Shown: piece after piece, positions 3,101 through 49,832 of the stretch | Layout of the letters: the number at the start of each line of letters is the position of its first letter | How positions within the stretch are numbered: the stretch's first letter is position 1 | Assembly: GCA_963921195.1 (NCBI GenBank) | Contig: OY992540.1 | Span: 14,081,136 to 14,145,135 of the forward strand | Reading direction: 5' to 3' | DNA: 64,000 nucleotides | From: Pegoplata infirma | Taxonomy: Eukaryota > Arthropoda > Insecta > Diptera > Anthomyiidae | The notes under the pieces: generated by a model | Seen by the model: the letters and a program-made list of their open reading frames with translations, nothing else | What the model was told of the DNA's origin: nothing | Database searches by the model: none | Position numbers and translations under genes: made by a program

Positions 3101-6100
3101 AACTTTAATAAATCCTTATTATCAATCCTTGATTATTTTGTAAATTAAATAAAAGCTTTATAAGAAACTTTAATGAAAGTTCATTTGTTTATTATTTTGA
3201 ATTCTGAGCAAAAGCTGCACGAAATCTTTAAATACATACTTTGAAATTAACCAAAATTGTTGGCTTTTTCGTGGAATTTTGTGTAGTCAAAATAAAAGCT
3301 TTAGAATTACAACACATATTCAAAATGAATGAAAGCTTTTTAATTAAATTGATTTATAAAATAAAAGCTTAACGTTTTTAATTATGCCAAGTTAAGTTCA
3401 AAGCTTTGACAATTATGTATTACAAATTAAATTAAAGCTCAGCGAACACAAAATAAAAGTTTGGCTGACATTTATGAAAAATCCTGCAAAAAATCAAAAA
3501 TTATATCCGCTCATGAATTAATAAAGAGAAACTTTGAAATTAAAATAGGTAAGAGATCATACCCGAAGGCATTTTTGGAAATTCATTTAACGGTCGATGG
3601 ATGGCCCAAAGCAGCTTTTACAACAAAAAATTCAAAAAAGTTGACCAGAAAGCATTTTTTTTAACCAAGTTTTAGCCCCTAAAAATTTAACTCCGGAATT
3701 TAGCAAGGCTTTATTAATATTAAAGCTTATGTTAGTATAACGTCAAAATGAAATGAAAATTTTTAAATGTGGCCACTAGAGTGCTTCAAAAAAAATATTA
3801 TTTTTTGCGTTCTCACCCCCTAATTTTGTGTTATTTGGTGCTAAAGCTTTGTCTGAATTTTTCAGATTTTTAAAAAAATTTTAGAACTGTTGCAAGCATT
3901 ATTTTACATCCGTAGTACATATGGGTGGGGGGAACAAAAAGTTTGGCGGTCTCTCCCTCCCCTTCCATTTTATGTTATTTGGTGGAAAAAGCTTTGCCTG
4001 ATTTTTTTCAGATATTAAAAAAAAGGTTTGAGGTGTTTCAAGCAACATTTTGCATCCGTAGTGCATTAAGGGCATGCTTGAACAGATCTAAACATATTTT
4101 TATACCCTACACCACTCTGTGGTACTGGGTATAATGAGTTTGTGCTGATGTTTGTAACTACCCGAAATATTGGTCCTAGCCTACACACAAAAAACAAATT
4201 TGCTAATTTCCAACTAATATTCAGTTGTTACAACAAAAATTCAGTTGACGAATTTGTATTAAAGTTGTAACAACTTAATATCGGTAGTTTCAACTAAATT
4301 TTGTTAGTACAACTGACTTTTGATAGAAACAATTGAAAAATTGGTTTGCCACAGCGAAATGCAGTAGCACCAACCGAATTTTGAGTTGATACAACTGAAA
4401 AATTCAGTTGGAAATTTATTTTTCTCTGTGTACCTTCAAGTAGTCGATTTAGCGATGTCCGTCCGTCCGTCCGTCTATCGGCTTAAGCACGATACAGGTC
4501 GCAATTTTCAATCAATTGACTTGAAATTTGTAACTTAAGCATATTTTGGCCCAAGGACGAAGCATATTGAAATTGTAGAAGATCGGTCCATGTTAAGATC
4601 TAGCCCCCATACAAAGGCTCCCTTTGGATTCGGCTTAAATTACTTTAATAACCGTATTATAATAGATATCGCTTTGAAGTTTAGCAGTTAATCAAATTTT
4701 GTGTGCACGAATCACCATTCCAAATTTGAAAGGGATCGGATCAGTCCTTCTGGTAGTCCCCATACAAACCACCCTCTCGATATTCACATATTTCCGTCAA
4801 AATTCATAAAAATGGAAATATTTGATAAAAATTTTATTTTTAGGTGTTAAACGTGTACTTTAGTAACCTAATCAAATCGAAATATAATTAGACCATTTTT
4901 GGACTTAGCCCCCTATATAAAAATGTTGACCGATATTCAGTTAAATCGGTCTATTGACAAAAAATAAAGCAGTTCCACTAAAATTTGATCTGTGTGTGTT
5001 CTCTACACTAAATAAAGATCTAACAAAGGACAGATCCAATCTGTCCATGATTGGACTTGGGACCTATTTTCCGGAAAACACTGGTGTAGGGTATCATATG
5101 GTCGGTCTTGACCGACTATAACTTTCTCACTTGTTTTTAAATGTTAATAGGGTCGAAATTTAAGCTTTGTCAACTTTTTGAACTAGATTTATCGTAGTTG
5201 TTGACTTTTAAAGCTTAAAGCTAAGTACTCTGTTTTTTACGGAGAAAATGTACTTAAACTTTAATCTCACCAAATCGCAATAAAACATTTAAAAAGCAAC
5301 AACTTTTGACAATTATAAGAAAGAAACGATCATGACAAAACTGAATTGTCGCTTTTTCACGACAATTTAAATTGTCTTGTATAATAAAAATGCGTGCTAA
5401 CGTTTTTAACAATTTTCCTATAATTCCTCGCGTTGCCAAAATTAATTTTTTTTATATGGAGTTTGACAGATTTTTCCCCGTGAAATTGAACAGAGTACTA
5501 TGCCTAAGATAAAATTAATCAAAATTTATTGTTACTTAAAAAAAAAGCTTGTCAAATTACAAGAAAAAGTCTCGTAATCCTATTTTACCAATATTTGACA
5601 GTTTTCCTTGTTTTTTAACAAATAATTTTCGATCGAAATTTAATATTTTTTTTTGGGCTTTTACAGTTTTTCTTGTAATTTTACAAATTTCTAAAATTTT
5701 TTACAAACTAAATCTCTTAAATTTACGAGAATTTCCTTTAAATTTTATTTCGCCAAAAAAGAAATTATCGTCAAATAGGAGGTAGCAAACAATGTAGCAA
5801 AATCACGAAACATCCTTGTAAGTTTTATCACGTCAAAAAATTTGTAAATTTACAATTTTATTGGTAAAAAACTAGTAAAATAACAAAATTATTGGTAAAA
5901 AGCTTGTAAAGTTACAAGGAATTGTTGTCAAACAGGAGGTAGCAATAAAAAAGTTACAACCTTTTCTTGGTGTTTTACAAGTTTTTTTTTAATTGTGAAG
6001 TATTACACAATTTTATTTTAAAACGAAATTAGAGCTTTAATAAAGATAGTTTTTAAAGCTTAATAATTTCAAAGAAAATAAAAGCCCAATCATAGATTAG

Positions 6101-7160: not shown

Positions 7161-7372
7161 ATAATTTTATAAGAAATTAATATGAGATCTAAGGTAAGTA
7201 ATTATATACAGTTGCTGCAGACCTTTTAAAGCTAATGTCCTTCTTAACAAAATAGCGGGTTGCCATTAGTACTTTATAACTTCATGAAACGTGAAAATTG
7301 CGTTTAGATCAGAAAGTACTTACGATACACAAAAAAGTCACATGATACAAAAAAACACATCCGTCGAATACA

Positions 7373-9218: not shown

Positions 9219-9770
9219 CAGAGACCAAATATAACAGTTATATGTGACTTTTTGTTTTAAAAAAATCATGAAACGAATGTTGTCCAAACTTAGTATTATA
9301 TATATGAAAAAAGACTTCTAGAGATGTCCCTTGTTAAAATTTGCAATAACATTTATTTTTTTGATTTTTTCAGTAACAGTAAAAAATAACAGTTATTAAA
9401 AACTTTTTGTTCAAACAATCTAAAATAACTTTTATTTTATACTTATTTGAGTAAATAACTGTTATAACAGTTATTTTTAAACAAATCAATCAAAGTTTAT
9501 ATCTTTAAATCAATGATTGAAGTATTAGATATCAATAGGATTCTTCTGCATGTGTTTATTGTTGTTTTATTTTAATAACTCGAGTTTTTTAAGGCTCAAA
9601 GAGTTTTTTATAACAGTTATAAAAAATAAAAGTTTTTTATTTCTGTTATTTTGAACAGATATTTATATAAATCATTTCAAACTGTTATTTTTAATTTTTA
9701 TTTGAAAAAATATTTTTGAACAGTAAAATTTGATTTTTTTCAATAAATCTCATAACTGTTATGGTCTCTG
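9219..9770. mobile_element. hAT-like word MITE (word AACAGTTATT), 8-bp TSD
   Basis: 552 bp with terminal repeats CAGAGACCA..TATAACAGTTAT and the inverse, flanked by the 8-bp duplication AATTATAC (9211-9218, 9771-9778). The end type CAGAG and 8-bp duplication fit hAT transposons. The interior repeats AACAGTTATT / AATAACTGTT many times. The target was the first bases of the family A element that follows. Confidence 0.8.
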
Positions 9771-12945: not shown

Positions 12946-13342
12946 CACTAAGAAAATTATGTCATTAACTGTTTGTAGGTTATTTTAAAAAGTAATCAGT
13001 AAAGTCATTTTAAAAGAAAAATCACTTATTTTATAAAGGATTTAATTTTTTTACTGTTTCTATAGTTTAAAAAAAAAAAATTTACTGTATTAAAAACGAA
13101 TTTTCTGTTACATTTAATTTCGGCAGTAAAAAATTTCTTCTATAGTTTTACTGTTTTTCAATACAAAATAACTGAATATTCACTAGTTTTTTAATGTTTT
13201 GGTTAGTCATTAAATTAACATTTAAAATTGACTGTAATGTGTTTTTATTTTAAATGAAAAAACAGTGGAATGGTTTTTAAATAAAATTTCATTTGTTTTA
13301 AGTGAATATTCACTGGAATTTACCTACATAATTTTTTGAGTG
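12946..13342. mobile_element. TA-flanked word element (word TTTACTG/CAGTAAA)
   Basis: 397 bp between TA dinucleotides (12944-12945, 13343-13344). Ends are CACTAAGAAAATTATGT and the inverse CACTCAAAAAATTATGT. The interior repeats TTACTGTT, CAGTAAA and GTGAATATTCAC. It is inserted into repeat family F. Confidence 0.75.
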
Positions 13343-17006: not shown

Positions 17007-17357
17007 TAGTTATATAATTTCCGCGGATTTCAAAGAAAATGTGTTTTTCTATGATAATTTAGCAAATATGGAAAAAAAAATGTTCTGTATTGTACTATAC
17101 CAAGTGTAAAACATAAATTCTGTAAATTTTTGGAGAAATTGGGCAACTTTAACCCCTTTTCATCGAGGTGAAATGGCAATTTGGGATATTACATATTTCT
17201 ATAATACAAGATATCTGCATATATCCGATTTCTCAAAAGCTACAGAATTTACATTTTACGCTTCGTTCCGTACAGTACAGAAAAAATTCTCCCATATTTG
17301 CTAAATTATTGTGAAAAAACGCATTTTATTTGGAATCCGCGGAAATTTTATCACTAC
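17007..17357. mobile_element. Palindromic element with about 110-bp arms
   Basis: The left arm (ATAATTTCCGCGGATTTCAA, AGAAAATGTGTTTTTCTATG, TAATTTAGCAAATATGG) is repeated inverted on the right (CCATATTTGCTAAATTATTG, GAATCCGCGGAAATTTTATC). The arms surround a 120-bp centre. No coding content. Confidence 0.7.
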
Positions 17358-22462: not shown

Positions 22463-23671
22463 CACAGAAAAAAATATGGAGGAAACAAATTTGAGTTATC
22501 ACTTGTTTAATTTTAAAAACAAAAATTGAGTAACTTTTTAATTGACGCAATTAAAAATTTACTTAAAAATTTTAAAAACAATTTAAGAAAATAATTTAAT
22601 AGTTTTTTTAATTTTTTTTAAGCTCTCATAGTTTTTTGAATTCTCGTTTATTTTATAGTTTTTTGTGTATGTATTAGTGTTTGGGAATTCCCGGACTTTT
22701 CAATTTCCCGGGAAACGGGAAAAAAATAATTTATTTCCCGGGATTCCCGGGAATCCCGGGAAATTTTCATTATTAATGTAAATCATAAAAAACATTAAAA
22801 TTTGATTATCTTTTTATTAAAAACAGTTTTATTAGAGATAAACAATTAATTAAAACATAAAAAATCAAAACATAAAAGTTTAAAATCCTGAAATACAATA
22901 AAACAAAACAAAAAAAAATATTGCAACTTTTTCCTTCACAAAAATCGCAAAAAATAGCTAAAAATCGCAAATTCGAGCACTTTTAATATTTATTCTGGAA
23001 ATGTTAATTCTAAGTTCAAAATTTTTATATTTTTTTGACAGTCTTAGCAAAATTATCATTAACCGAGGTATATTTTTTGACTTTTTAAGTTTTTTTCATG
23101 ATATTAACATACTTTTTATACTTGGTCAGTTTCCTATGAATAAATATTTGCACTGTTCTTCCAAATAGAAAAAATCAAATGTAATTATACCTGTATGTAA
23201 AAAAATGTTAAAAATTAAAGTATAATAAACGTTTTTATGCAAACAGGCATATATAACAAAATTCCCGGATTTCCCGGGAAAAATTAAAAAAATTCCCGGG
23301 AATTCCCGTCAGTGTTTTCCCGGGAATTCCCGGGAAATCCGACCCGGGAATTCCCGGACCCCAAACACTAGTATGTATGTATATGAAAGTCTGTAATCGT
23401 ATTTATAAAATTTTCCTATGTTTTTGAGACATAAATATGTTTGGTAAAGTTTGAAAAAACAATTTTTTTTTTTGTAAAAAAATTTAAAACTTTTTTAAAC
23501 TTTTAAAAAAAATAAATAGATAAATTTTGAGTAAATTTTTAATTGTGTCAATTAAATTTTTATTAAAAATTTACTCAATGCTATTAAATCGTTTACTGGT
23601 GCAAAATTGAGTAATTTTTTACTCAATACTATTAAAAATTTACTCAAATATTTTTTTTATTTTTTTCTGTG
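22463..23671. mobile_element. TA-flanked word element (word TTGAGTAAATTTTT), hosts a hAT-like insert
   Basis: Ends CACAGAAAAAAATA and inverse CACAGAAAAAAATAAA, flanked by TA (22461-22462, 23672-23673). The interior has TTGAGTAA / TTTACTCAA and CAATTAAAAATTTAC in both orientations. The 696-bp hAT-like element at 22675 splits it, so the original is about 505 bp. Confidence 0.75.
22675..23370. mobile_element. hAT-like word element (word TTCCCGGGAA), 8-bp TSD
   Basis: Ends TAGTGTTTGGG and inverse, flanked by the 8-bp duplication GTATGTAT (22667-22674, 23371-23378). Both subterminal zones are runs of CCCGGGAATTCCCGGGAA. The middle (22780-23260) is ordinary AT-rich sequence. The GC-rich ends stand out strongly from the surroundings. 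Confidence 0.85.
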
Positions 23672-24253: not shown

Positions 24254-24804
24254 CCCAATCAGAAAAATACAATCGCAAAAGCGTTGTGGAAGGTTGTACG
24301 AGCGTTCTCTATACCAACTTCAAAGCGCCTTCAGATGATCCGAATGATAACATCGATCTACGCTAGGTATAAAGCGTTTTAAAAGCAATGTAAAAAAGTG
24401 CTTTGAGAACGTTTTTTTAAAGTCATCAAAGCGCTTTAAAAACCCAAAGTAAAGAATTTCTGCTTTAGTTCGGGTATAATAATTTGTTTGATACAAAGTG
24501 AAATCCGAAAAAAAAATTTTTGTACTCCAAAAAAATTTTTCAAACAAATTTTCAAAACTTAGAAAATTTAAAAAAAAAAAAATCTAAAACATTTTTGATA
24601 TTTTTTTTTACTTAAAAAACAAAAAAGAAATGTTATTCAAAAATATATTTTATAAAATGTAACTATAGTTTCGGAACTTATAAATTTTTTTTCAAAAAAA
24701 AATCTAAAGAACTCTTAAAACGATTCGCACAACCTTCCACAACGCTCGTACAACCTTCCACAACGCTTTCACAACGCTTTTGCGATTATATTTTTCTGAC
24801 TGGG
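24254..24804. mobile_element. Word element (word AAGCGTT/AACGCTT)
   Basis: 551 bp with 30-bp inverted ends beginning CCCAATCAGAAAAATA / CCCAGTCAGAAAAATA and continuing ..ATCGCAAAAGCG. Next comes a second inverted block, GGAAGGTTGTACGAGCG. The interior and right flank (to about 25030) repeat AAGCGCTTT and AACGCTTT in both orientations. No convincing target duplication. A 60-75 bp direct repeat (TAGTTTCGGAACTTA) lies at 24668 and 24805. Confidence 0.65.
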
Positions 24805-25555: not shown

Positions 25556-26447
25556 GCGGAATCTTTTATACCCTCCAACATGCAAAAAAATGAATTGCAG
25601 ACGTTTTCTTTTTTTTTGGGGGGGGGGTAGGAAGTGGTAATTGGGGGGGGGGGGAGGCAAGTGGTAATTGGGGGGCAAATTGTGTTTAAAAATGTATTCT
25701 TATGCTTTTTGCACTAAAGAAATACAAGTTTATCATTATTTAAAAAAAATTTTATTCCACGCCCATAAAAGGGGGCGGACCGGAAAACGAAATTATCTAA
25801 TTCTCTGGGTCCAAATGCAGGACTTTGAACTTCTTGTAGCATAAAAATATTGCATTTGTTAAACAAAAACACAAAAAATCATGTAAGAAAATCGGCCAAA
25901 AAGCACAATTTTGGCCGAATAGGCCGAATACCGAATAATTGTATAATATTTGTGCTCACGTGTTGAAAAACATACTAAACTAACTTTAAATCACATTAGA
26001 AAGCCACAAAAATATTTTAATAAGTGTTTTTGCAATTAAAAACATTTTTTACATTCAAAAAAAATTTTCGGTCGAAAAAAATTTACACTCTAAAATATAT
26101 TTTTTTACAAAAATGTCCAAAAAAAAATTTTTGCTTAAAATAAAATCATTCTAGACAACATTCTCATGCATTTGAGTATCCCGCCGAGTCGACTTTTATT
26201 TTTTTCTTGTTTTTACTACATAAATATTTTTTTTTTTTTAATATTCGGCTTCGGCTTCGGTTTCGGTTTGGCCGAATAGTGAAAATTTGGCCGAATATTC
26301 GGCTTCGGCCAAAAAAGGTGTATTCGGTCGGACACTACTGATCAATAATATATATACTTTATGGGGTCTTAGACCGATATTTCGATGCGTTACACACGGA
26401 ATGACAAAGTGAGTATACCCCCATACTGTAGTTGGAGTGTATAAAAA
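25556..26447 (-). mobile_element. INE-1-like family B, disrupted copy
   Basis: On the minus strand the 5' end is TATACACTCCAACTACAGTA (a mutated TATACCC) and the 3' side is TTGGAGGGTATAAAAGATTC. A GGGGGG-rich stretch and the family B boxes lie between. Inside sit a TTCGGCCGAA word remnant (25897-26338, right end CGGTCGGACACTA as in the element at 42048) and part of the third INE type. Confidence 0.65.
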
Positions 26448-26702: not shown

Positions 26703-26927
26703 TGTGATGAAAATCGTTCGATTTCAAATCGATCGTTTTTAAATTTTCAATTTCGATGATTTTGAAATTGTTGTAAGATAAATAAGATAAAATTGTATGA
26801 ATTCATTTATTTGATTATACTCAAGCCTTTAAAAACAATTCAAGTTATTTTGGCTTTTCTGCTAACTTTTCGAATTAAGATTTTTAATAAAATCGATCGA
26901 AATTGAAATCGTTCGATTTCCATCACA
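26703..26927. mobile_element. TA-flanked word element (word AATCGATCG)
   Basis: 225 bp, ends TGTGATGAAAATCG and inverse TGTGATGGAAATCGAACG, flanked by TA (26701-26702, 26928-26929). Subterminal ATCGTTCGATTTCAAATCGA runs occur in both orientations. Confidence 0.75.
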
Positions 26928-27006: not shown

Positions 27007-29056
27007 CCCAGCAAAAAAAGAGCTTACCATTCACTACAAAATTCACCACAACTTATGAACCAGATGTACTTCTTCTTCAGCTGAAACACTGATGAATTTT
27101 ATATGGGCGTGACACACAATATCACTAGTGTTTAGTATGTACATATATATTAACATCTTTATCACAACTTCTGAAGTAGTGATCGGGATGTAAATATAAC
27201 TTGACCTTTTGGAAGTGCTTTTTTCATCACTTCTTTAGAAGTATATATTTCTTGGCATTTTGGATGTGATTATGTAATTTTTATATGGTGATTTAGAAGT
27301 GATTTTTTCATCACTTCTTGATAAGTACATATTTCATGACTTTTTGGGATTGATTTTAAGAGTTTTTTTTTTAGTATTTACACTAATAAAAAAAATAAAA
27401 CCAAAACGATATTTTTAACAATGTATAATATTTATTATGTAATATTTAGACTTGAAATTGTTAAGATTAAATCGATGTTTTTAATAATTTAGTTTAGCTA
27501 ATAGGAATTATTAATTAAATGTGGATGTATATATTTTTCTAATAGTTTTTCATGCGCTTAATCCGAATCTGGCCTTAGAAGTGATTTATCTTATTTTGAG
27601 ATATTTAGATTTTCCATTGACAGTACTGCATAAACTCAGATATTCGCAATGTTCGAGACCTTATAAAACCGAGAATTATTTTATGATGTATAATTAGTGC
27701 AGCACATCTAAAAATACTTCACTTATTCTTCAAATTACTTTTGCAATCCTTAAGATATCTTTTTTTCATTACGGAGATATCGACCGATAAAATTATTGCA
27801 ATTTCGGCCCTAAAAAATAAAAGAAAACAAATTTGAAAACCAACCAATTTGTCTTGTTGATATATAATAGTACCGAATTCGAAACTCTATTAGAGGTGCA
27901 TCTAAGCCCGGCATCAATTTGGGTATCAATTTTAGGGTAAATTTTCAGGGTGTCATACAAAAAATCTTTATTTGGGCTAACATTATAGAGCTTCGCCATA
28001 TCGGATAAAGATTTATTTTGAATAAAATTAATAAAATTCTTAAAAGTACATAGAGTTCTTAGTTTTATATTCAATTAAAATTTTTATTATTCGGTTAACC
28101 GAATAATTCAAATTTATCCGATTATTAACCGATAAAATCTCAACCCCGATTAATTATTTGCCCGATTAGCCGATTAAACCAAAACCTCGATTAATTGAAT
28201 ACCCTAATGTTTAGAAGAGTTTTTATACCTTTCAACATCGATACCAACTTAGTCATTTTGTGGCTATATTCAGCCCTTTTTTTTTAAAGGCTACCACCTT
28301 TTTTTGGTTATCTTTTTTAGCCCTTTAAGCACTTTTTAAGTCATTTGATAATTTTTACCATAATCTGGAAACTTTTTATTGTTTTTTTTGTACATAATTT
28401 ACAAAACAACTCCAAAAATTATATAAAAAAAATGTTTTTATACATGTAGTTAAAAAAAAACATCCAATAAATAAAATGAAGAGATAAAAAAAAGTAATTC
28501 TCTCATTTTAAATCAGATATCGTATATTTTTAGAAGAGTTTTTATACCTTTAAACGGCAATACCAACTTAGCTCTTTTTTGGTTATATTTAACCCTTGTC
28601 TTTTTTAAGGGCTAAAAGTATTTTTGTTATCTTTTTAGCACTTCTTGAGTCATTTTGTAATTTTAACAAAAATCTGGAAACTGTTATTTTTTATAACATT
28701 ATTTACATAACAAATTCGCTTTTGCGGCATATCAAGTTAATTCATTTATAAAATTTAGCTTTTTATTAAATCAGAGAAAATTATAAAAAAAAATATTCAA
28801 CAAAACAAATCCAATACTTATTAAGTGCCACAAATTTGTACTTTTCAATTGCATTTGTAAACACATATGAAAATGATACTTCTAAATCATTGAGGAAAGA
28901 ACTGGTGAAAGTTGTTATTATTGGCATTTTTTTTAGCAGTTTTGGAAGTGCTTATAAAAGTACTTCTTATGGAATATGAAGATCGGCACATATAGCTACT
29001 ATGTATGTAGTGAATCACTTATTCTTTTTGCACCACTTCGATTTTTTTTTGCTGGG
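27007..29056. mobile_element. Large word element (word AGAAGTGAT/ATCACTTCT) with nested inserts
   Basis: Ends CCCAGCAAAAAAAGAGC and inverse CCCAGCAAAAAAAAATCGA. AAGTGATTTTTTCATCACTT-type words fill 27060-27340 and 28900-29050. The middle is foreign: a TTAACCGA/CGATTAAT word block (28080-28205) and a tandem duplication of about 322 bp (TTTTTATACCTTTCAACATC at 28220 and its sister at 28542). No transposase frame. Confidence 0.6.
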
Positions 29057-29308: not shown

Positions 29309-29942
29309 CCCAGCAAAACTTTGGTAATGGGTGGTGATTATTTAACACATTACCAGGTAATGTATCTCCCTTATTTGTAGCATTATTTTAGGATGTCTTA
29401 CCAGTCATTTGTTTAGCAACATATTATTTCAAGGTGAAAAATAATGTTTTACTAATAACGTGTTACGTAATGCATGATTATTGCAAAAATTGTATTTCAT
29501 AGTTATTATTTTATTTCTAAACATTAAATCATGGGTGACTTTTATTTGGTTACATTATGTATTATTTCAAAATTTAAAATAATGCATTATTTGTAATTGA
29601 ATACACAATGCATTATAATAACATAAAAAATAAATACTTTATACAAAAATGCATAAGTTTTAACTAGAGATGGGCTCACGAATTTTTGAATCAGGGACAC
29701 TCATTCACGGGCATATTTTTTTATACTCACTTACAATCACGTGAGTAAATTTAATACATCGTTACTTGTTAATTACTCGTAACGCCTTATATATTACGTT
29801 TTGGTATGCTATATTTAATACATTACTCGTATGCATTACTTTGAGTCTCATCCCACGTAAAAATCATCAATGGTGCAATGTATAAAATAAGATATCCTAT
29901 ATCATATTTTATACCTTATTTGGTAATCAAAGTTTTGCTGGG
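29309..29942. mobile_element. Word element (word GTAATGCATTAC) with nested remnant
   Basis: 634 bp, ends CCCAGCAAAACTTTGGTAAT and inverse CCCAGCAAAACTTTGATTAC. The interior repeats AATGCATTA, CATTATT and GTAATG. 29660-29880 is a sister of the segment at 25045. The ends match those of the 27007 element in the first 10 bases. Confidence 0.7.
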
Positions 29943-31217: not shown

Positions 31218-32540
31218 CCCAGGTAAAAATCGTCACGTATGTACACATATGAACATGTATGCGTTCATGTGTGAACATGTATGAATCACATATGATTACG
31301 TATGAAACATATATGAACATGTTCGGCACATATGATAGCATATGTGGAGTCATACATTCATATAGCGGTTTGTGTTTGAACATTATATGATATACATCCC
31401 ATAGCTGATACTATTAATTTTCAATCATATGATCGAACATTTGTTCCTTTTAGCCAAATTTAACATGCAGGTTTTGAAGGCTGGTAGTGATAAGGTCAGA
31501 CTTTCTTTAGAGAGAAAATAGGTGTAAAAATGGAGTTGTTTGTCGATTTTATTTTTTTTTTGCTTGGTACATTTACAAATATGGTATCATTGGAATGGAA
31601 TTTAGAGAGCTTTCCAAACTAGTTCAACAAAATATTTAATTTTTTTAGTTTTGATTCCCCAAAAAAAAACTAAAAGAACGAACAGATGGACCACTAAATA
31701 AATCATCACATTAGAATTCCTTTTTGATAATAAGCAACATTTTAAAATAATTTATAATTATCTTTGTATTTAAATGTATGCTATTTATTTCCTTCCGTGT
31801 TTTTTTTTTTTCTTCGTAACAGTTGTCAAACATTTTTATTGTTTTCAAAATTTTTAAAACTTCAAATAAAAAAAAAAATTATTCACAAATTGAAAATTTT
31901 TTAAGAAAAACAAAATCATCCTTTTGTACAGAATTTGCGGAAAATAAAAGGTAAAATATAAGAACATTTAATTAAGATTTATCTTAAAATAACTATCTGT
32001 CTTATTTACAGCTCAATATCGATTTTTTTTTTTGGGGAGAGAGAGCAACTTCGTCAAGAAATCAAAAATTGAAGCGAAGAAACGTAAGGAATTTTTAACA
32101 CTCTATTGCAATATAATAGTTTCAAAGCAAGATAAATCCCGGAAAGGATGCGTTTGGTAAGAGAGACAGCAACTTCGTAAAGAAATCAGCAATTGAAGAA
32201 AAGAAACGCAAGGAATGTTTAGCTCTTTATACAAGATGAATACCGGACAGGATGTGTAAGATTAGCAAAAACTGTGTAACCTCAAATATTATTTTCGAGT
32301 ATAGAATTTAAAAATATGAATTTTATTAAACAATAAACTTTTTATTATATAAAAATAATCTCTTTTTATGTACCAATAAGAAAGCAAAAAAATATAAAAG
32401 AAAAATTTGTGAATATATGCAAAAACATACATTATCATATATGCTCATATGTCTACATATTACCTCAATTTTCGTCCATGCACATATATGGGTGATCATA
32501 TGTGTTCATACGTGAACACATGTGACGATTTCTAACCGGG
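31218..32540. mobile_element. TA-flanked word element (word CATATG)
   Basis: 1323 bp flanked by TA (31216-31217, 32541-32542). Ends CCCAGGTAAAAATCGTCAC and inverse CCCGGTTAGAAATCGTCAC. The outer 200 and 100 bp are full of CATATG, GAACATGT and ACGTATGTA words. The middle has two diverged units of about 125 bp (GCAACTTCGT, AAGAAACGYAAGGAATKTTT, ATACCGGACAGGATG) preceded by an intron-like stretch (AAAG/GTAAAA to TTATTTACAG). Confidence 0.75.
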
Positions 32541-32868: not shown

Positions 32869-34446
32869 TGGGGCATTCCATGTCAAATCGGACACTTTGA
32901 AAAACTTTTTTTTTTTATTTTCCCAATTTGTTAACAGTTTTTAGTACCCTTCGAAAACTCCTTCGTGGTAAATTTTCAGAGTTTTTTGATGATCCGTTCA
33001 AAAGATATCGAATTTTTAAAAATTGGTAGTTTGTTCTTTTACTCAAACTTCTTTTAATCATAACTTCTTCAATAATGGTCCAAATTTCAATTTTTTTTTT
33101 TCAAAATTTTTTGTTTTTTACGTACTTTCTAAAAAAAAAATCCCAAAAAATTCTTAAAAGCGCTCTAGTATGCGATTTTTAAGTTTTAAAATTTAAATCT
33201 CATTTTTGAAAATGTTTGTACTCTTCGATTTTTTTTGAAATTTTTTTGTGTAAAACATCTATCGATTCTACAAATTTTTTGCCCAGGCGGATCGTGGGAT
33301 AACGATAATTACTATTTTTTTAAATTTTTTGAAAAAATTTTGTTGTAATTTTCCAATCTTAAAATCATTTCTACTGCTCGAATGGTGCGTCATTTTTTCA
33401 AAACATACCTACGCCCTATCTCCACTCCCTAAGTAGGCTCCCATACAAAATTACATTTTTATAAAATTTGCTCCAACTGTTATTTGTATGGGAGCCTACT
33501 TAGGGAGTAGAGATAGGGCGTAGGTATGTTTTGAAAAAATGTTGTAGGGTAAAAATAAATGGGGGTCGGTCTCACTAATGACCCCTCTCGGACGCACCAT
33601 TGGACCGGTAGAAGCTGATTAAATAAAACAAATTTGCAAAAAATAAAAAAAAATTGTATGGGGACCGCCTTAACAGTTAAAGATAGAGGGTAGGTGTGTT
33701 CAGAAAAAATGTTTGGACTAAAAAAATATTGTGGGTCGGTCATACATTTTGTTGCTCTAAGGGCACTATTAGGGCAGTTAGAGCGGTTGGAACAAATTTT
33801 AAAAATGTCGTTTTGTGTGGGAGCCCCCTTAGAAATTGGAGATAGGGTATTAGTTTGTTCCAAAGAAATGTTAAGACGTAAAAATTAATGGGGGTCGTTC
33901 TTATAAAGGACCCCTCTATGACGCACCATTGGAGCAGTAGAAATGATTTTAAGATTGAAAAATTACAAAAAAATTTTTTCAAAAAATTTAAAAAAATAGT
34001 AATAATCGTTATCCCACGATCTTCCTGGGAAAAAAATTTGTAGAATTGATAGAAGTTTTACACAAAAAAATTTCAAAAAAATCGAAGAGTACAAACATTT
34101 TCAAAAATGAGATTTAAATTTTAAAACTTAAAAATCGCATACTAGAGCGCTTTTAAGAATTTTTTGACATTTTTTTTATTTAGAAAGTACGTAAAAAAAC
34201 AAAAATTTTGAAAAAAAAAAATTTGAAATTTGGACCATTATTAAAGAAGTTATGATTAAAAGAAGTTTGAGTAAAGGTACAAACTACCAATTTTTAAAAA
34301 TTCGATATCTTTTGAACGGGTCATCAAAAAAATCTGAAAATTTACCACGAAGGAGTTTTCGAAGGGTACTAAAAACTGTAAACAAATTGGGAAAATCTAA
34401 AAAAAAAAAGTTTTTCAAAGTGTCCGATTTCACATGGAATGACCCA
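32869..34446. mobile_element. Foldback-like element D, complete copy
   Basis: 1578 bp with TA on both sides (32867-32868, 34447-34448). Ends TGGGGCATTCCATGTCAAAT / TGGGTCATTCCATGTGAAAT. The inverted arms are about 500 bp (left 32869-33390, right 33930-34446), with a shorter inner palindrome around 33465. The centre holds three related units of about 130-160 bp (33490, 33659, 33820) with GGGAGCC, GGGGGTCGGTC and GACGCACCATTGG boxes. No transposase seen. Confidence 0.8.
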
Positions 34447-34448
34447 TA

Positions 34449-35971: not shown

Positions 35972-36571
35972 TAGGGTTCTATAGTCGAAAAGTCGATTAA
36001 TAGACTTTTTGTATGAAAATTCGAAAAGTCGATTAATCGACTTTTTGTATGAAAAAGTCGAAAAGTCGATTAATCGACTTTTTGTATGAAAAAGTCGAAA
36101 AGTCGAAATCGACTTTTTTGTTCTTAAAAAGTCGAAAAGTCGACTTTTGCTTATTTTCGACTTTTTTCGAATTTTTTACCAATATTTTTGATTATTGTAA
36201 ACACCACAATGATAGGGTTCTATAAATCGAAGTCGACTCTCATTTCAACCTTTTCCACATTTTCGATTTCTTCGACTTTTTTTTTATAAATAAAATACAA
36301 CCAAAAAAAGCACCTAAATGCTTACTACAAGTCAAAACTAAACTTTTATTTACAAAAAAATCTACTTTTTAAAAGTTGGAAAAGGTCGAAAAAAAGTTAA
36401 AAAGTCAAAGAAAGTCAAAAAGTCGAAAAAAATCGAAAAGTCGAAAAAATCGAAAAGTCGAAAAAGTCGAAAAAAGTCGACTTTTTAAAAAGTCTAAAGG
36501 TCGAAAAGTCGACTTTTTAAAATTTGAAAAAAGTCGAAAAATCGACTTTTTGTTGCGACTATATAACCCTA
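35972..36571. mobile_element. hAT-like word element (word AAGTCGATTAATCGACTT), 8-bp TSD
   Basis: 600 bp, ends TAGGGTTCTATAGTCG and inverse TAGGGTTATATAGTCG, flanked by the 8-bp duplication GCTCAAAC (35964-35971, 36572-36579). Subterminal zones are dense runs of AAAAGTCGATTAATCGACTT. An internal TAGGGTTCTATAAATCG near 36212 looks like a second left end. The Lys-rich 99-aa frame in it is only the word translated. Confidence 0.85.
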
Positions 36572-38890: not shown

Positions 38891-39334
38891 GGGGTTTTCA
38901 CAGTGACGATTAAATTTGCCATTTTTAGTGTGGTATTTGGCAAATTTGCCATTTTACTAAACGTCAAGTATTTGCCACCATTTTTTCTTTGCATATCGTG
39001 AGCGCACCTTTTGTTATTAATTTGCACAAAATAACTTTAATTAACTTTTTACATTCACAATTTTAAAATAAACCCAAAAAATATGTATTTTTTCTTTTTA
39101 TATAAATGTTTTTGTTGCCGCGTTCGAAATTTTAGCATAAACAATCACAGCTGTTTTAATTTTTATGTTTTTTTCTTATTTGCACACTGGCATTTTGTAT
39201 TTAGACAAGGTTTGTGTTGGGCATTTTAAGAAAAATATGCCACATTCAAATTGGCATTTTTTTTTTTGACGTTTGGCACGTTTGCCAAATACCACACATA
39301 AAAAGGCAAATTTAATCGTCACTGTGAAAACCCT
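38891..39334. mobile_element. Inverted-repeat element (word ATTTGGCAAATTTGCC)
   Basis: 444 bp with about 60-bp arms: GGGGTTTTCACAGTGACGAT, TAAATTTGCC, GTGGTATTTGGCAAA and the inverse at the right end. The arms are rich in TTTGCCAAAT. No clear target duplication. It sits next to a moderately GC-rich stretch (38716-38880) of unknown origin. Confidence 0.7.
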
Positions 39335-41861: not shown

Positions 41862-41864
41862 TTA

Positions 41865-42988
41865 CAAGGGAAGTATCCCTAGTGTCACCCGCGGAATTGG
41901 AATTGGTTTTATTTTGTAGAGCAGAAAAAATAAAGGGACACGAATTTTTTTAGCGGCCCAAATTCATATTTAGGGGGAAAAAAGTAGGGGGGAAGACAAG
42001 GCCATTTTTCAGTTTTTTCGTTTATCTCCTATATTATGCAAAGAAACTAGAGTCCGACCGAAACCAGTTTTCGAGGCCGAACCGAAACCGAACCGAATAT
42101 TCGGCCGAAAAAGTAATATTCGGCCGAAACCGAACCGAAACCGAAACTTAAAAAAAAAATACCGCCTGGCATGAATAAAATTATTAAAAATTTGTTAAAG
42201 ATTAATATACAGAATATAATGCTTTTAAACCATAGGAATTGTTGTAATTTTGAAAAAAAAATATGTTTTTTAAAAAACTTACAAAAAAAATTGCATATTT
42301 CATTTGCAGATTAGGAGAAAATTATTTTTGAACTGAAACAGTTTTACATTTATTGCATAAACTTGTAACATTTTCTTCAGTTGAACTGAAACAAGTGTAA
42401 TGAAATACGAAATCAAAAAATTCACCGACTTTTTTACATATTTTTTAAAATACCAAAAAGTTTCGGTTTCGGCTAATATTCGGCCAAAATTTTGCCGAAT
42501 ACCGAATAGAGGCCGAAACCCCATTATTCGGCCGAAACCGAGACCGAAACCGAATATTCGGTCGGACTCTAAAAGAAACCTAGTCATGTTACATACCAAA
42601 TGAAAGGTCTTTGGAAAACCTATCTATGTGTGCTAAGAACGTGTCCAAACATGCACAACTTTTCGTCATATTGAGTAAAATACCAAAATTTTAGGATATT
42701 TTTGTTAATAAATCGAAAACTATTAGCTTCTTTGGCCCGTTGTTAGCACCACGAGATAGGTATTTTTATTACCTTTAATCTGATACCACACATGCCTATA
42801 TTAATTTTGTTAAAATAGGCGTAAATCATAAAAAACTGAAAAAGGTCAATTTCCCCCCATACATATCGACCCCCCTAAAAATGAGTTTGGGCCGCTAAAA
42901 AAAAGTACGTGTCGAATTAATTTTCGTTCTTAACAACATATCCAAATTTCATGAAGATCGGAGGGTGACACCAGGGAGACTTCCCTTG
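41865..42988 (+). mobile_element. CTNAG-site TIR element, copy 3 (with hAT-like insert)
   Basis: From CAAGGGAAGTATCCCTAGTG to the inverse end, flanked by TTA (41862-41864, 42989-42991) in C-TTA...TTA-G. Split by the 524-bp element at 42048. Removing that insert and one TSD restores the order of copies 1 and 2 and a length of about 592 bp. Confidence 0.85.
42048..42571. mobile_element. hAT-like word element (word TTCGGCCGAA), 8-bp TSD
   Basis: 524 bp, ends TAGAGTCCGACCGAA and inverse, flanked by AAAGAAAC (42040-42047, 42572-42579); uninterrupted sister copies read GCAAAGAAACCTAGTC here. Subterminal zones consist of ATTCGGCCGAA, CCGAAACCGAA and inverses; the 260-bp middle is plain AT-rich. The frames across it are translated words. 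Confidence 0.9.
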
Positions 42989-42991
42989 TTA

Positions 42992-43390: not shown

Positions 43391-46230
43391 ATTTTCTATA
43401 TAGGAACAAAGTCTCAGAATCTGAGACTTTTTCTATAAAGGCAAAATTTCTAAAAATCTGAGAGTCTCAGAGTCTGAGACTTTATTTATATAGAAAAAAT
43501 GTCTCAGAGTCTGAGACTTTTTTATATAGAAAAAATGTCTCAGAATCTGAGACTTTTTTTATATAGAAAAAATGTCTCAGAATCTGAGACTTTTTTTATA
43601 TAGAAAAAATGTCTCAGAATCTGAGACTTTTTTTATATAGAAAAAATGTCTCAGAATCTGAGACTTTTTTTATATAGAAAAAATGTCTCAGAATCTGAGA
43701 CTTTTTTTATATAGAAAAAATGTCTCAGAATCTGAGACTTTTTTTATATAGAAAAAATGTCTCAGAATCTGAGACCTTTTTTATATAGAAAAAATGTCTC
43801 AGAATCTGAGACTTTTTTTATATAGAAAAAATGTCTCAGAATCTGAGACTTTTTTTATATAGAAAAAATGTCTCAGAATCTGAGACTTTTTTTATATAGA
43901 AAAAATGTCTCAGAATCTGAGACTTTTTTTATATAGAAAAAATGTCTCAGAATCTGAGACTTTTTTTATATAGAAAAAATGTCTCAGAATCTGAGACTTT
44001 TTTTATATAGAAAAAATGTCTCAGAATCTGAGACTTTTTTTATATAGAAAAAATGTCTCAGAATCTGAGACTTTTTTTATATAGAAAAAATGTCTCAGAA
44101 TCTGAGACTTTTTTTATATAGAAAAAATGTCTCAGATTCTGAGACTTTTTTTATATAGAAAAAATGTCTCAGAATCTGAGACTTTTTTTATATAGAAAAA
44201 ATGTCTCAGAATCTGAGACTTTTTTTATATAGAAAAAATGTCTCAGAATCTGAGACTTTTTTTATATAGAAAAAATGTCTCAGAATCTGAGACTTTTTTT
44301 ATATAGAAAAAATGTCTCAGAATCTGAGACTTTTTTTATATAGAAAAAATGTCTCAGAATCTGAGACTTTTTTTATATAGAAAAAATGTCTCAGAATCTG
44401 AGACTTTTTTTATATAGAAAAAATGTCTCAGAATCTGAGACTTTTTTTATATAGAAAAAATGTCTCAGAATCTGAGACTTTTTTTATATAGAAAAAATGT
44501 CTCAGAATCTGAGACTTTTTTTATATAGAAAAAATGTCTCAGAATCTGAGACTTTTTTTATATAGAAAAAATGTCTCAGAATCTGAGACTTTTTTTATAT
44601 AGAAAAAATGTCTCAGAATCTGAGACTTTTTTTATATAGAAAAAATGTCTCAGAATCTGAGACTTTTTTTATATAGAAAAAATGTCTCAGAATCTGAGAC
44701 TTTTTTTTATATAGAAAAAATGTCTCAGAATCTGAGACTTTTTTTTATATAGAAAAAATGTCTCAGAATCTGAGACTTTTTTTATATAGAAAAAATGTCT
44801 CAGAATCTGAGACTTTTTTTATATAGAAAAAATGTCTCAGAATCTGAGACTTTTTTTATATAGAAAAAATGTCTCAGAATCTGAGACTTTTTTTATATAG
44901 AAAAAATGTCTCAGAATCTGAGACTTTTTTTATATAGAAAAAATGTCTCAGAATCTGAGACTTTTTTTATATAGAAAAAATGTCTCAGAATCTGAGACTT
45001 TTTTTATATAGAAAAAATGTCTCAGAATCTGAGACTTTTTTTATATAGAAAAAATGTCTCAGAATCTGAGACTTTTTTTATATAGAAAAAATGTCTCAGA
45101 ATCTGAGACTTTTTTTATATAGAAAAAATGTCTCAGAATCTGAGACTTTTTTTATATAGAAAAAATGTCTCAGAATCTGAGACTTTTTTTATATAGAAAA
45201 AATGTCTCAGAATCTGAGACTTTTTTTATATAGAAAAAATGTCTCAGAATCTGAGACTTTTTTTATATAGAAAAAATGTCTCAGAATCTGAGACTTTTTT
45301 TATATAGAAAAAATGTCTCAGAATCTGAGACCTTTTTTATATAGAAAAAATGTCTCAGAATCTGAGACTTTTTTTATATAGAAAAAATGTCTCAGATCTG
45401 AGACTTTTTTTATATAGAAAAAATGTCTCAGAATCTGAGACTTTTTTTATATAGAAAAAATGTCTCAGAATCTGAGACTTTTTTTATATAGAAAAAATGT
45501 CTCAGAATCTGAGACTTTTTTTATATAGAAAAAATGTCTCAGAATCTGAGACTTTTTTTATATAGAAAAAATGTCTCAGAATCTGAGACTTTTTTTATAT
45601 AGAAAAAATGTCTCAGAATCTGAGACTTTTTTTATATAGAAAAAATGTCTCAGAATCTGAGACTTTTTTTATATAGAAAAAATGTCTCAGAATCTGAGAC
45701 TTTTTTTATATAGAAAAAATGTCTCAGAATCTGAGACTTTTTTTATATAGAAAAAATGTCTCAGAATCTGAGACTTTTTTTATATAGAAAAAATGTCTCA
45801 GAATCTGAGACTTTTTTTATATAGAAAAAATGTCTCAGAATCTGAGACTTTTTTTATATAGAAAAAATGTCTCAGAATCTGAGACTTTTTTTATATAGAA
45901 AAAATGTCTCAGAATCTGAGACTTTTTTTATATAGAAAAAATGTCTCAGAATCTGAGACTTTTTTTATATAGAAAAAATGTCTCAGAATCTGGGACTTCT
46001 TTTTATATAGAAAAAATGTCTCAGAATCTGAGACTTCTTTTTATATAGAAAAAATGTCTCTGAGTCTAAGACTTTTTTTATATAGAAAAAATGTCTCAGA
46101 ATCTGAGACTTTTTTTATATAGAAAAAATGTCTCAGAATCTGAGACTTTTTTTATATAGAAAAAATGTCTCAGAATCTGAGACTTTTTTTATATAGAAAA
46201 AATGTCTTAGAATCTGAGACTTTTTTTATA
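43391..46230. repeat. 37-bp palindromic minisatellite, about 75 copies
   Basis: Unit: AAAAAATGTCTCAGAATC plus TGAGACTTTTTTTATATAG, 37 bp. GTCTCAGA-A-TCTGAGAC is a perfect 8-bp hairpin extended by the A6/T7 runs to about 15 bp. The first units (to about 43520) and the last few are variable. The core is nearly invariant, with single changes at about 43771, 44135, 45331 and 45396 and T-run length changes. This gradient fits homogenisation by unequal exchange. Confidence 0.95.
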
Positions 46231-46804
46231 TCCCGGCTAAAAATAAATGTGTATGTTCATATATGACTATGTATTGATCTTTATATGATCATATATGGCA
46301 TGTAAGGAAGCATATATGTGCCCATATATGCAAAAATCGATCCCATATATGAGGTCGTATGTAAACTATGTACCATATATGATATCATATATGGAACCAT
46401 ATATGTTGCAAATTTGAATCAGAATTACAAAAAAAAAGTTTTTTACGAATAAAATTATATTTTATTACCATCGATTAACTTATATAAAAATAAACATAAC
46501 TGCAATACCGGTGCATATAAATAATTTAACAACTATTGTCCTACTTGAAAAATATTCTGCTTAAAAAATTACTTTTACATAGAAAAATGTTGGAAAAGGT
46601 AAGTTTTCATTAATATATATAAAGAATTCTAAAATCATGTTTTCTTTTTTTTCAATTATAAGCGTGGACATTTTATTCCAAAACAAGATGAACTGGAAAT
46701 TTTCGTATTCAAAATGTCGAAAAAACAATATTCTTGAGTTCTTTGATGTTGAAGAAAATTAAACAACGCAGCTACATAAAGCTTTCGCAACATGGTGGAG
46801 AGGG

Positions 46805-47224
46805 CATATGCACCACCATAATGTTATCATTACGATTTCAATATTACAAACTTTTTACAAATCCCTTAATGTCGCCATATCAAATTGGAAATTAAAAGAT
46901 CGTATAAGCAGTTTTGATACCGAGTTACGAGTTGAAGAAAGCTCTTCTACTTGGAAGAGAGAACATATGCGCCACCATAACGTTATCACTACGATTTCAA
47001 CACTACAAACTATTTTGAAATCCCTTACTGTCGCAAAAGCAAATTGGAAATGGAAAGAACATGTATGCAGTTTGAAGGTCGAGTTACGAGTTACAGCAAC
47101 GTTCAGCTCACTCAACTTGGGGGAAAAATCATATGCATTTCTGTCACCTTACATACATGGAAAATATTGTCGGCATGATGTAAGTATTAATAGTTTATTT
47201 ATCCCTCTCCTTCAAATATCCTAA
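46805..47224 (+). other. Open frame over 159-bp tandem repeat, doubtful coding
   Basis: Two units 159 bp apart start CATATGCACCACCATAA and CATATGCGCCACCATAAC. Because the unit is 53 codons the frame stays open for 138 residues, with repeated HHNVI.TIS.LQT, K.LTVA and ELRV segments. I recognise no domain. It sits inside a mobile element after an intron-like stretch (AAAAG/GTAAGT at 46597 to ATTATAAG at 46664). Most likely noncoding, but the near absence of frame-breaking indels is noted. Confidence 0.3.
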
Positions 47225-47466
47225 GAAACATAACCCAGTAAGATAATATACATACTACTAAATATATTGCTTTTAATAAAAGTTTTAAGTACTCATTTGC
47301 TTATTATTAGTAAAAAATTCTTTTAGTAGTAGAAAGTTATTTTTTGCTGGAATAAAAAAGAAATGTGGAATTATTTTTAATATTTTTTCACTTGAAATTC
47401 CATAAAAAGTATTCGATGGTCTTAAGCATCCCATGGTCTTAACAAAATACACTCTATTAACATGTA

Positions 47467-48646
47467 CACCGAAAAAAATCCATGCAACATTTTACGAAAA
47501 AAAGTTTCGTACTTTTTTTTTCGTAAAATACACGAAAGTTGACTACATAGTACGAAAAACTTTAGTGCTGAATTTCGTATTTTTACGAAAGTAACGAAAA
47601 TGATTAGTAAATATTTTTTTCGTAATATTTACGAATGTTGACTACATATTACGAAAAAAATGTTGTAAAAACTTTTGTAATTTTACGAAAGTAACGAAAA
47701 AAAGAATGTAAATGCTTCTTTCGTAAAATATACGAATGTTGACTACATTTTACAAAAAAAAGTGTACAGACTTTCGTTTTTTTACGAAAATAATTCGTAA
47801 AAACTTCTTTCGTAAAATATACGAAAGTGGACTTTATATTACGAAAAAAATAATCAAGAATTTTGTAATTTTACGAAACTAATGAAAAAAGAAGAAATCT
47901 TTAAATGAACGCTTAAAGGGTGTTTTTATTCCCTCCAACTACAGTATTGAGGTATACTCACTTTGTCATTTCGTGTGTAACGCTATGTATTATTGATCCG
48001 TGATAGATTCTAAGGCATTCTATTAATGTCCGTCTATATAAAACACGGATACCATCCAAAATAAAAAAGCTAGACTCCTGAAGTTTAGCACGAACAAGTC
48101 TTTTTGTCATCAGCTGGTTAAGTTCGTATGTGGGCAAAAAAGTTTCCCCTTAAAGAAATAAACCAACCTCGGAAAAACGAAATCACTGTAAATATTATTT
48201 ACTAAATAATGAATGAAATCTTATAAGTCTCTGTTAAGAAGAAACAATTAATTGCTTGGAAATGTTGCTGTCAAAACGTTTTAAACGTTGTTCTTATTCT
48301 CAAGAAAGAATTTTTACATGTAATTTCGTTTATTTACCGATTTTTTTTTTTATTTTACAAAAGATTTTCGTAAAAAAAAAATATTTCGTTTATTTTACGA
48401 AATAATTTCGTAAAACAAAAAAAAATATTTCGTTTATTTTACGAAAATTTTCGTAAAACACAAAAATTTATTGCGTTTATTTTACGAAATTTTTTTGTAA
48501 AATACAAAAACAATTTCGTTTATTTTACGAAAAAATTTCGTGCATTTCGTACATTGTACGCAAGAATTTCGTGGTGCGAAACAACGAAATTTTTCGTACA
48601 ATGTACGAACGTTTTCGTACATATAAGGCAGGAATTTTTTTCGGTG
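47467..48646. mobile_element. TA-flanked word element (word TTTTACGAAA)
   Basis: 1180 bp, ends CACCGAAAAAAATCC and inverse CACCGAAAAAAATTCC, flanked by TA (47465-47466, 48647-48648). TTTCGTAAAATA and TTTTACGAAA fill both sides more than thirty times. A family B fragment is nested at 47925-48180. Confidence 0.85.
47925..48180 (+). mobile_element. INE-1-like family B, 5' fragment
   Basis: TTTATTCCCTCCAACTACAG (mutated start), GTGTGTAACGC, ATTATTGATCCGTGATAGAT, CATCCAAAATAAAAAAGCTA. It ends in the AAACCAACCTCGGAAAAACG box and has no 3' hairpin. Confidence 0.7.
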
Positions 48647-49222
48647 TATGTATCTAAGAAGTCAATATTTAAAGGCACATGGTTGTTTCTTTAAATGATA
48701 TCAGTGTTATCATTAAAACCCATCAGCACCAAATGCTATTGTTGGTAATACTTAAGGGCCTGCCACAGAGTCAATTCCGTTCCAAAGTGGTTTGAAAGTT
48801 TTTCTCTAAAAACGTAAAACAAAATATTTTTTCGGAATAAATCCACTCCTATGCAATTGAATCCCACTTTGATTTTTGAAAGTGATTTCATTCCGAAAAA
48901 AAAAATATTCGTTTTGGGTTTTACGAGTAAACCACTTATAACAATTCCGAACGGAATTAAGCCTGTGACATGCCCTTCAATACAATAAAATGTCTAGAAA
49001 TACCTTATTAATATTTTATATCTTTTTTTTATAGATTTTGACTTTAAATATGCTAAAATGAAGTTTATAGCATAACAAAAACGCTAAGTCTGAAGAAACT
49101 CTAATTTAACAATAACACAAGAAAACAACAAGGAAATCATCCTTCCTTTAATAAGCCCTTTGCTCGCTTCTTGATATTTTAAATCCTTTACTATTTTTTT
49201 ACTATCAAAATGTGTTCTAATA

Positions 49223-49362
49223 GGTCTATTCGATTACCCAAATTTTTTACTATTTTTTACTACAACTGGAAAGTCTTGTTTACTTTTTGTATTCAAAATT
49301 TCCAGCTGTAGTAAAATGAGTAAAAAAAAATAGTAGATTGTAGTAAGGTAATCGAATAGACC
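49223..49362. mobile_element. Small palindromic MITE
   Basis: 140 bp flanked by TA (49221-49222, 49363-49364). Ends GGTCTATTCGATTACC, arms of about 55 bp with TTTTTTACTATTTTTTACTA and CAACTGGAAA, inverse on the right. Confidence 0.8.
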
Positions 49363-49832
49363 TAATATCTATAAGTTAAATTATATATTTTTATATGGTC
49401 ACCAAAAATGCAAACGGAGTAAGTAAAAAATCAAAATCATCAAACTAAAGGTTTTTATTGAGATATATGAAAAACCCCATAGTGAATAAAAAAATATTTT
49501 TTATTTTTAATTATACTTATGTACACCGTTTGCAATTCTGGTGAATATAATAATCTATTACATATAGTTTAAGATAAAAAAAAAATAATTAAAAATAAGA
49601 AAAAGAATGTAAAACAAATTGAAAACAAGATCATATATGATCCAATATATGACCCAATATATGATACAATATATGATCACATATATTGGATCATATATGA
49701 TCGTGTCTTATATAAGCGCCAATTTTGGAATATGTTCATATATGAGACCATATTTGACACTATATATGATACTGTATATGGTCTCATATATGATATCATA
49801 TATGATAATATACAACATTTTTAGCCGGGATA

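Follow-up and report, generated by a model that had tools for sequence, protein, structure and literature searches.

Word-packed subterminal zones in short transposons of the fly Pegoplata infirma: putative amplified transposase-binding sites

Short transposons whose ends are packed with copies of one short word, mostly a different word in each family, are present in a 64,000-nucleotide stretch of the genome of Pegoplata infirma (Diptera, Anthomyiidae; assembly GCA_963921195.1, contig OY992540.1, positions 14,081,136 to 14,145,135 of the forward strand), which is called the window below. We consider them, with a probability of about 0.72, to be putative non-autonomous cut-and-paste transposons with amplified subterminal transposase-binding sites. 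The word-zone plan is real in the hAT-like group of elements, is multicopy in the two families checked, and recurs in a 200 kb sample of the genome (20 stretches of 10 kb, taken at round coordinates on five long contigs). It is ordinary in principle, since subterminal transposase sites are already known; what is unusual is the density of the words, their palindromy and the number of families that have a word of their own. The window has a GC content of ~28.7 percent (base counts), and copies were sought in the whole source assembly (1.384 Gb, 813 contigs).

Elements, ends and target duplications

A first-pass annotation, made from the letters alone, had listed a dozen bounded elements with short terminal inverted repeats (TIRs) and a word zone inside them. 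The listed start is the tip of a TIR in 11 of the 12 and lies one base off in the other (46231, here 46232); TIR ends were found for all, and the list was incomplete, omitting 9219-9770, 24254-24804 and a partial element ending at 26337. The elements, referred to hereafter by their start positions, are as follows, with a strand where one was assigned.

4184..4430: TA-flanked element, TIR CACAnA..; word CAACTGAA/TTCAGTTG, 10 copies against 0.29 expected (0/60 shuffles), at successive gaps of 20, 31, 20, 19, 20, 41, 10, 11 and 11
9219..9770: hAT-like element; TIR CAGAGACC, target duplication AATTATAC on both sides, word ACTGTTAT, 10 copies with the TIR excluded (0/60 shuffles as good)
12946..13342: TA-flanked element; TIR CACTnAnAAAATTATGT, word TTTACTG, exact words weak
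22463..23671: TA-flanked element, host to the nested 22675; TIR CACAGAAAAAAATA, word TTGAGTAA
22675..23370: hAT-like element; target duplication GTATGTAT, word TTCCCGGGAA at both ends and 0 copies in the 396 bp middle
24254..24804: CCCA-TIR element; TIR of 39 bp (36 identical), word AACGCT, no clear duplication
25880..26337, minus strand: partial element, second member of the GGCCGAA word family; end TAGTGTCCGACCGAA lies at 26337 and the left limit was placed by eye, the other terminus looked for and not found
26703..26927: short TA-flanked fold-back element with 4 copies of the word TCGATCGA; weak for exact words
27007..29056: CCCAGC-TIR element; word zone weak and mainly internal, with a hAT-type right terminus enclosed at 28206
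29309..29942: CCCAGC-TIR element; degenerate word near GCATTAC, weak zone; a copy (locus L059) is TA-flanked on both sides
31218..32540: CCCRG-TIR element, TA-flanked; word CACATATG
35972..36571: hAT-like element of a multicopy family; target duplication GCTCAAAC, word AAGTCGA(CTT)
42048..42571: hAT-like element of a multicopy family, sitting in another repeat; target duplication AAAGAAAC, word GGCCGAA/CCGAAAC
46232..49829: CCCGGC-TIR element within a satellite array; word CATATATG at both ends, interrupted by 47467-48646
47467..48646: TA-flanked element; TIR CACCGAAAAAAAT, word TTTACGAAA, interior holding a piece of another dispersed repeat

By their TIRs, which measure 9-17 bp in most elements and 25-39 bp in 24254, 26703 and 31218, the listed elements fall into a hAT-like group starting TAGnG (22675, 35972, 42048), a TA-flanked group starting CACnnAAAA (4184, 12946, 22463, 47467), a CCCRG group (27007, 29309, 31218, 46232, joined by 24254) and the small TA-flanked fold-back 26703. 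Both 8-bp and TA duplications had been claimed, and both occur, the former perfect in 22675, 35972 and 42048 and the latter on both sides of 4184, 12946, 22463, 47467, 26703 and 31218; three listed elements show neither, being flanked by AT/AT (46232), by TG/TG (27007) or by no duplication (29309). The proposal that the plan crosses superfamilies stands in so far as word zones accompany hAT-like, TA-flanked CAC and CCCRG ends, most strongly the first; the flanks of the CCCRG group point to no one superfamily, with TA/TA at 31218 and the L059 copy of 29309, and 24254 adding to those with none. For the CAC group, a Tc1/mariner-like TA duplication is found on both sides in 4/4, which is a weak criterion; a scan of the window for 12-bp TIRs with TA returned 213 rows where shuffles averaged 39, and is not specific, and a copy of 12946 in L041 (91 percent over positions 1-396) has flanks that are not TA.

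The hAT-like ends are the most secure. Hermes, a hAT element, makes 8-bp duplications, and 9219, 22675, 35972 and 42048 all have perfect ones (4/4). A blind scan of the window for a YARNG TIR with an 8-bp duplication, in which the words were ignored, returned exactly these four elements, 9219 being new, against a shuffled expectation of 1.2 (maximum 3 in 30); all four real duplications are perfect, and word zones are present in 4/4 with the TIR excluded. The YARNG start of the four is not independent evidence because the scan demanded it, and 3/4 were also recovered when it was not required. None of the four has its own transposase gene, and at 524-696 bp they are non-autonomous at best, since they are too short for an enzyme of ~600 residues. 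A rolling-circle origin of this group was ruled out by the precise target duplications.

A clean empty site was found for 42048, whose host repeat is present in three uninterrupted copies within the window (three spans of ~300 bp at 90-95 percent, and two weaker at 68-69). Among the matches listed, those for 46232 are consistent with insertion into a satellite. The repeat holding 4184 has three relatives with an alignment gap of ~28 bp, hence no clean empty site, and 26703 gave two spans at 71 percent. The same search returned tandem matches for 12946 and short ones for 31218, and no span for 22463, 22675, 27007, 29309 and 35972.

Word zones, their confinement and their copies

When one mismatch was allowed, the best 8-letter word at the element ends exceeded all 60 shuffled sets in 12/12 listed elements, although barely so in 22463 (6.1 vs 6.0), and exact 6-mers exceeded 100/100 shuffles in all twelve; a word zone in every element, as first claimed, is thus upheld at this tolerance and falls short for exact 8-mers, which exceeded 100/100 shuffles in only 8/12 (failing in 12946, 26703, 27007 and 29309). 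Two control segments also scored highly, 17015-17348 exceeding 60/60 shuffles and 38913-39312 exceeding 59/60. Against 1000 other segment pairs of the window, which themselves contain further word zones, 22675, 35972, 42048, 46232 and 47467 lie above all, 31218, 22463 and 4184 within the top 9-51, and the weak four within the top 62-548. Some of the words first written down do not survive: GTAATGCATTAC, given for 29309, has no exact occurrence in the window, AATCGATCG and TCGATTAATCGA are each present twice, and the AAGTGAT zone of 27007 is weak and mainly internal, with 0 copies in the left and 2 in the right terminal 150 bp.

That words might spill past the proposed ends was the failure to look for, and they do not. 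In terminal windows of 150 bp (shorter in two elements <300 bp) 121 word copies were counted, against 1 in the adjoining outer 150 bp, where the window background predicts ~3.3; the inside count is biased because the words were picked from inside. The middle is free of words in 22675 and 42048 and free or nearly so in 31218, words also lie deeper inside in 35972, 47467 and 29309, and those of 46232 form two terminal blocks. In most elements the words start close inside the TIR, and in the hAT-like group the first begins 9-14 bp from at least one tip (13/9, 14/13, 11/24, 11/21). TIR starts are alike within a group and the words mostly differ, therefore the word marks a family more specifically than the first TIR bases do. 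The claim of a different word in each element is mostly borne out, the exceptions being 31218 and 46232, with related words, and 42048, whose word recurs in the partial element ending at 26337. In these two pairs the ends are alike beyond 200/200 shuffles and the interiors fall within the shuffled range.

The copy alignments proposed with the first-pass list as a check confirm the boundaries and duplications of two hAT-like families. For 42048, 4697 first-look candidates, of which 40 were scored, gave 42 matches, the full-length ones 96-98 percent alike; among the 28 best-scoring loci compared, the window's own included, 28/28 match over positions 1-524 and the duplication is 8/8 in 27 and 7/8 in 1 (one-base offsets allowed). 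For 35972 (3530 first-look candidates; 12 loci examined, the window's own included), both ends are present at 10/12 loci, with duplications perfect in 9 and 7/8 in 1 when the best-duplication pair is taken. Each of these copies encloses 19-36 AAGTCG words, and flanks of up to 600 bp contain 0-1; the word positions vary from copy to copy while the top words are identical in the ten two-ended copies.

The words also diverge less than their surroundings in 42048. Differences per base were 1/1008 at the tips, 14/2912 in words, 29/2358 in spacers and 172/8349 in the middle (words vs spacers, p=0.003; words vs middle, p=2e-10). Shared variants counted by alignment column were 2/104 in words, 3/68 in spacers and 34/316 in the middle (words vs middle, p=0.004), and singletons 10/104, 15/68 and 69/316, respectively. 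In the single copy of 29309 (L059), words differed at 1/71 sites and other sites at 66/553 (p=0.004); the word lists for 29309 and 12946 were chosen by the analyst.

In the 200 kb sample, a strict scan by ends found 12 hAT-like elements, whereas 10 shuffles gave 0.2 on average and never more than 1. The word exceeded 40/40 shuffles in 8/12, with words including ATATGCAC, CGGTACGC, CCGATTAA, ATCGAATA, CGATACCG and AGCGCATA, and the ends outscored their own flanks in 11/12 (Wilcoxon p=0.0015). Taken with the four of the window, the word beats all shuffles in 12/16 and ends exceed flanks in 15/16 (p=9e-5). Two sampled hAT-like elements with different TIRs, L041:6807-7434 and L043:7699-8246, have the word ATATGCAC in common, therefore private does not mean strictly unique.

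The plan also exists on one element that encodes its own transposase. A search of the genome for the hAT dimerisation domain family gave at least 150 matches (150 of 946 candidates scored), and three loci with long open frames (L061, L062, L063) were fetched. L061 is complete from 197 to 2992, with TIR TAGAGATGAGC, the duplication GTCTCTGT on both sides, and a 593-codon open frame that matches Dimer_Tnp_hAT, has a BED finger just upstream and has Hermes as its solved relative. The two ends together carry 5 copies of its word ACGGTGAT, where 0.11 are expected (0/200 shuffles), and the 629 bp outside carry none. The first-pass annotation had proposed to look for an autonomous relative with the same word near its ends; the word at both ends of L061 matches no listed element.

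Amplified binding sites and the alternatives

The hAT-like elements share 8-bp duplications with Hermes of Musca domestica, to which the L061 transposase is related by sequence. They are also like it in having many short subterminal motifs near the tips, BED-finger sites in the case of Hermes, and the first word, 9-14 bp from at least one tip, can be set beside the Hermes BED site at bp 11-27; in the portion of the Hermes account available, BED fingers bind short sites cooperatively, two of them on the quasi-palindrome at bp 11-27, and the site layout differs between the ends (PMC10368747). The Hermes site as given there is a 4-bp AAGT/AAGC with two palindromic pairs only, whereas the words here are longer, often palindromic and family-specific (PMC10368747). 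The 35972 word, in which AAGT faces ACTT (5.67 AAGT/ACTT per 100 bp vs 1.32 in the window), is reminiscent of it; the other three hAT-like elements show no such enrichment (1.34-1.63 per 100 bp). In maize, the accessible text on Ac/Ds bears out the precedent that Ac has subterminal transposase-bound repeats, describing many AAACGG sites bound cooperatively by transposase and Ds elements that share TIR and hexamers around unrelated filler (PMC3260210). Unlike Ac/Ds, where one word serves one family, many families here lie side by side, mostly with their own words. Herves of Anopheles gambiae has several copies of CG(A/G)ATTCAT at both ends, critical and sufficient for transposase binding, and its authors state in the text available that binding sites differ between hAT elements; unlike many of the window words, the Herves word is not palindromic (PMC3143072). 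For Drosophila, the part of the source available reports extra transposase sites within the tandemly repeated TIRs of Galileo and TIR repeats of Tetris that have spread into satellites, but Tetris units are ~220 bp in long TIRs and the words here are 6-12 bp beside short TIRs (PMC4079207).

We therefore favour amplified transposase-binding sites as the reading of the hAT-like group because of the position of the words, their two orientations, the lower divergence in two of three families (42048 and 29309, not 12946) and the precedent of Ac, Herves and Hermes; as judged from these sequence comparisons, the words are probably bound by transposase, and their copy number would affect mobility. The TA and CCC groups may, by analogy, act as the hAT-like group does. 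Each short TIR would have a zone of multiplied binding sites immediately inside it. A family-specific transposase, in the 8-bp group a BED-finger hAT enzyme, would be supplied from elsewhere in the genome. It would recognise the word in either orientation, occupy both ends cooperatively, and bring the tips together and cut them. New word copies would arise by tandem duplication, and selection for mobilisation would retain the word while spacing and interior change. A further step, that the word is a private address for each family, that elements across at least three TIR classes compete for transposase through piled-up high-affinity palindromic sites, that this end code diversifies fast, and that surplus words seed satellites, is tentative and in our view doubtful.

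Several results weigh against binding sites. Seven of the 12 listed elements do not lie above all other window segments, in 4/12 sampled hAT-like elements the word fails to beat all shuffles, and random segments of the sample are heavy-tailed (5 percent >30), so that the 12 elements rank 18-296 of 300. Within 42048, where the copies compared were the best-scoring ones, shared variants do not differ significantly between words and spacers (2/104 vs 3/68, p=0.39), and the word-spacer difference in singletons (p=0.028) vanishes under a second word definition (p=0.20); singletons are also rarer in words than in middle sequence, a pattern not expected from selection acting before insertion. Words are not protected in the single copy of 12946 (words 6/71, rest 27/324, p=1). 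It is not clear that 42048 and its partial relative have unrelated interiors (4/200 shuffles score as well), and the tandem periodicity of 35972, 46232 and 47467 would be yielded by duplication alone. As regards the enzyme, the L061 word is none of those of the listed elements, L061 being another family; the stretches fetched for L062 and L063 yielded no credible ends, the candidates there being of low complexity and overlapping the frame; and no window element was linked to its own transposase among the window's open reading frames (ORFs) and the three fetched loci. No transposase was named in the window from 35 ORF queries (one ORF queried twice and one pair overlapping), part of 66 open stretches; no relatives of the ORF at 46808 were found at E 0.001, and 7 ORFs in the matches >2 kb at L042, L055 and L057 show no transposase domain.

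The alternative that survives best, although we hold it unlikely, is neutral amplification, in which slippage, unequal exchange or abortive gap repair near the ends multiplies any sequence and the words have no function. Tandem periods of 37 bp (35972), 43-89 bp (47467) and 12 bp (46232), with 16-22 of 28 flanking columns conserved beside the word, are what it expects, as are a palindromic unit that forms a satellite of ~75 copies and the words of 12946, which diverge like the rest of that element. It accounts less well for flanking columns that rise above the 95 percent null at only 0/28 positions in 12946 and 6-10/28 in seven others, beside a word core of ~1.0-1.7 bits per position (a figure raised by the choice of word), and for words that lie at both ends, mostly starting close inside the TIR, and that in 42048 and 29309 have diverged less than the interior. 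The (nearly) word-free middles of 22675, 42048 and 31218 also speak against it; those of 35972, 47467 and 29309 do not.

We think it improbable that the words bind a host protein instead, such as a transcription factor, silencer or chromatin protein that aids or restrains the elements. We take GGGAATTCCC to be like a kappa-B site and CATATG and CAACTG like E-boxes, and count this in its favour. A ten-bp phasing of word gaps hints at side-by-side binding: a period of 10.5 bp fits best when every gap of 11 elements is used, and 0/2000 jittered sets fit as well. Under stricter settings the phasing weakens, to 10/2000 for gaps of 15-90 bp in 15 elements and 57/2000 with the tandem types removed, the best period itself not being significant for these gaps (50/300, 116/300); gaps of 7-90 bp without the tandem types gave 1/2000. 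The 10.5 bp phasing is suggestive only, and words that mostly differ between families and lie directly inside the ends suit an element-specific protein better than a host factor.

Ordinary microsatellites or chance fold-back stems near transposon ends are very improbable and, for the hAT-like group, largely refuted: 26703 and 24254 do have longer inverted arms, some arrays are tandem, and past the TIR inverted matching exceeds direct matching in 5/12 elements compared (9219, 24254, 26703, 31218, 46232), but it is no better in 6/12 (4184, 12946, 29309, 35972, 42048, 47467) and equal in 22675, the words end at element boundaries, and TIRs and duplications are precise. Most elements do not consist mainly of long inverted arms, and a long-stem fold-back structure was ruled out for most by TIR lengths and the end comparison. 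Head-to-tail arrays that lack element ends do not describe the elements either, although tandem stretches are present in 35972, 46232 and 47467, and pure microsatellites were ruled out by the sharp ends.

Known subterminal transposase sites have been described one element at a time, whereas here many families in one genome have mostly their own word; a search of titles and abstract starts, with most subscription papers outside its coverage, found no paper describing one genome in which many families have private palindromic words. It becomes possible to test how BED fingers select their DNA words and how word number relates to the mobility of non-autonomous elements, and word zones offer a simple annotation signal for short transposons without genes.

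Nested elements, satellites and other features

Several elements are nested. The right terminus TAGGGTATTCAA at 28197-28206 belongs to a further hAT-like family (word CGATTA) inserted in 27007, and L045:1308-2331 is a copy of that family with both ends and an 8-bp duplication; L045 also holds pieces of a 27007 relative with identical ends. A TAGAGATGGGC terminus at 29665 inside 29309, also found in the L059 copy at 1384, has one mismatch to the L061 TIR and is perhaps a nested hAT-like element. From the outside inwards, the satellite holds 46232, which holds 47467, which holds the match to another dispersed repeat; 46232 also contains short inverted repeats at 48754-48977, 49218-49367 and 49383-49558. 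The satellite, at 43411-50135 and split by 46232, has a 37-bp unit, the near-palindrome GTCTCAGAATCTGAGAC, in 74 exact copies, and may derive from a word zone because a CCGGCTAAAA-type terminus near 50318 adjoins it.

Near the window start, 264-3994 is an AAGCTT word zone with periods of 51-280 bp, and at 57233-59040 two tandem zones of a ~21 bp unit (GAATTACAATTGATC and its complement) lie ~1 kb apart in opposite orientation. At 32867-34448 there is a 1.58 kb inverted-repeat element with no clear word zone (1/60 shuffles equal), whose internal ORF at 33480-33863 is closely copied at 61092-61454. A scan of the window against Rfam at gathering scores gave no match, nor did a search of viral contigs with two exact patterns. 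The ORF at 54080-54682 matches RNase H weakly (E 0.0016, short of the cut-off) and is possibly a retroelement remnant, and the minus-strand ORF at 62621-63982 is a C2H2 zinc finger. The window repeats resemble those reported from Calliphora vicina in the part of that account available (PMC3630058).

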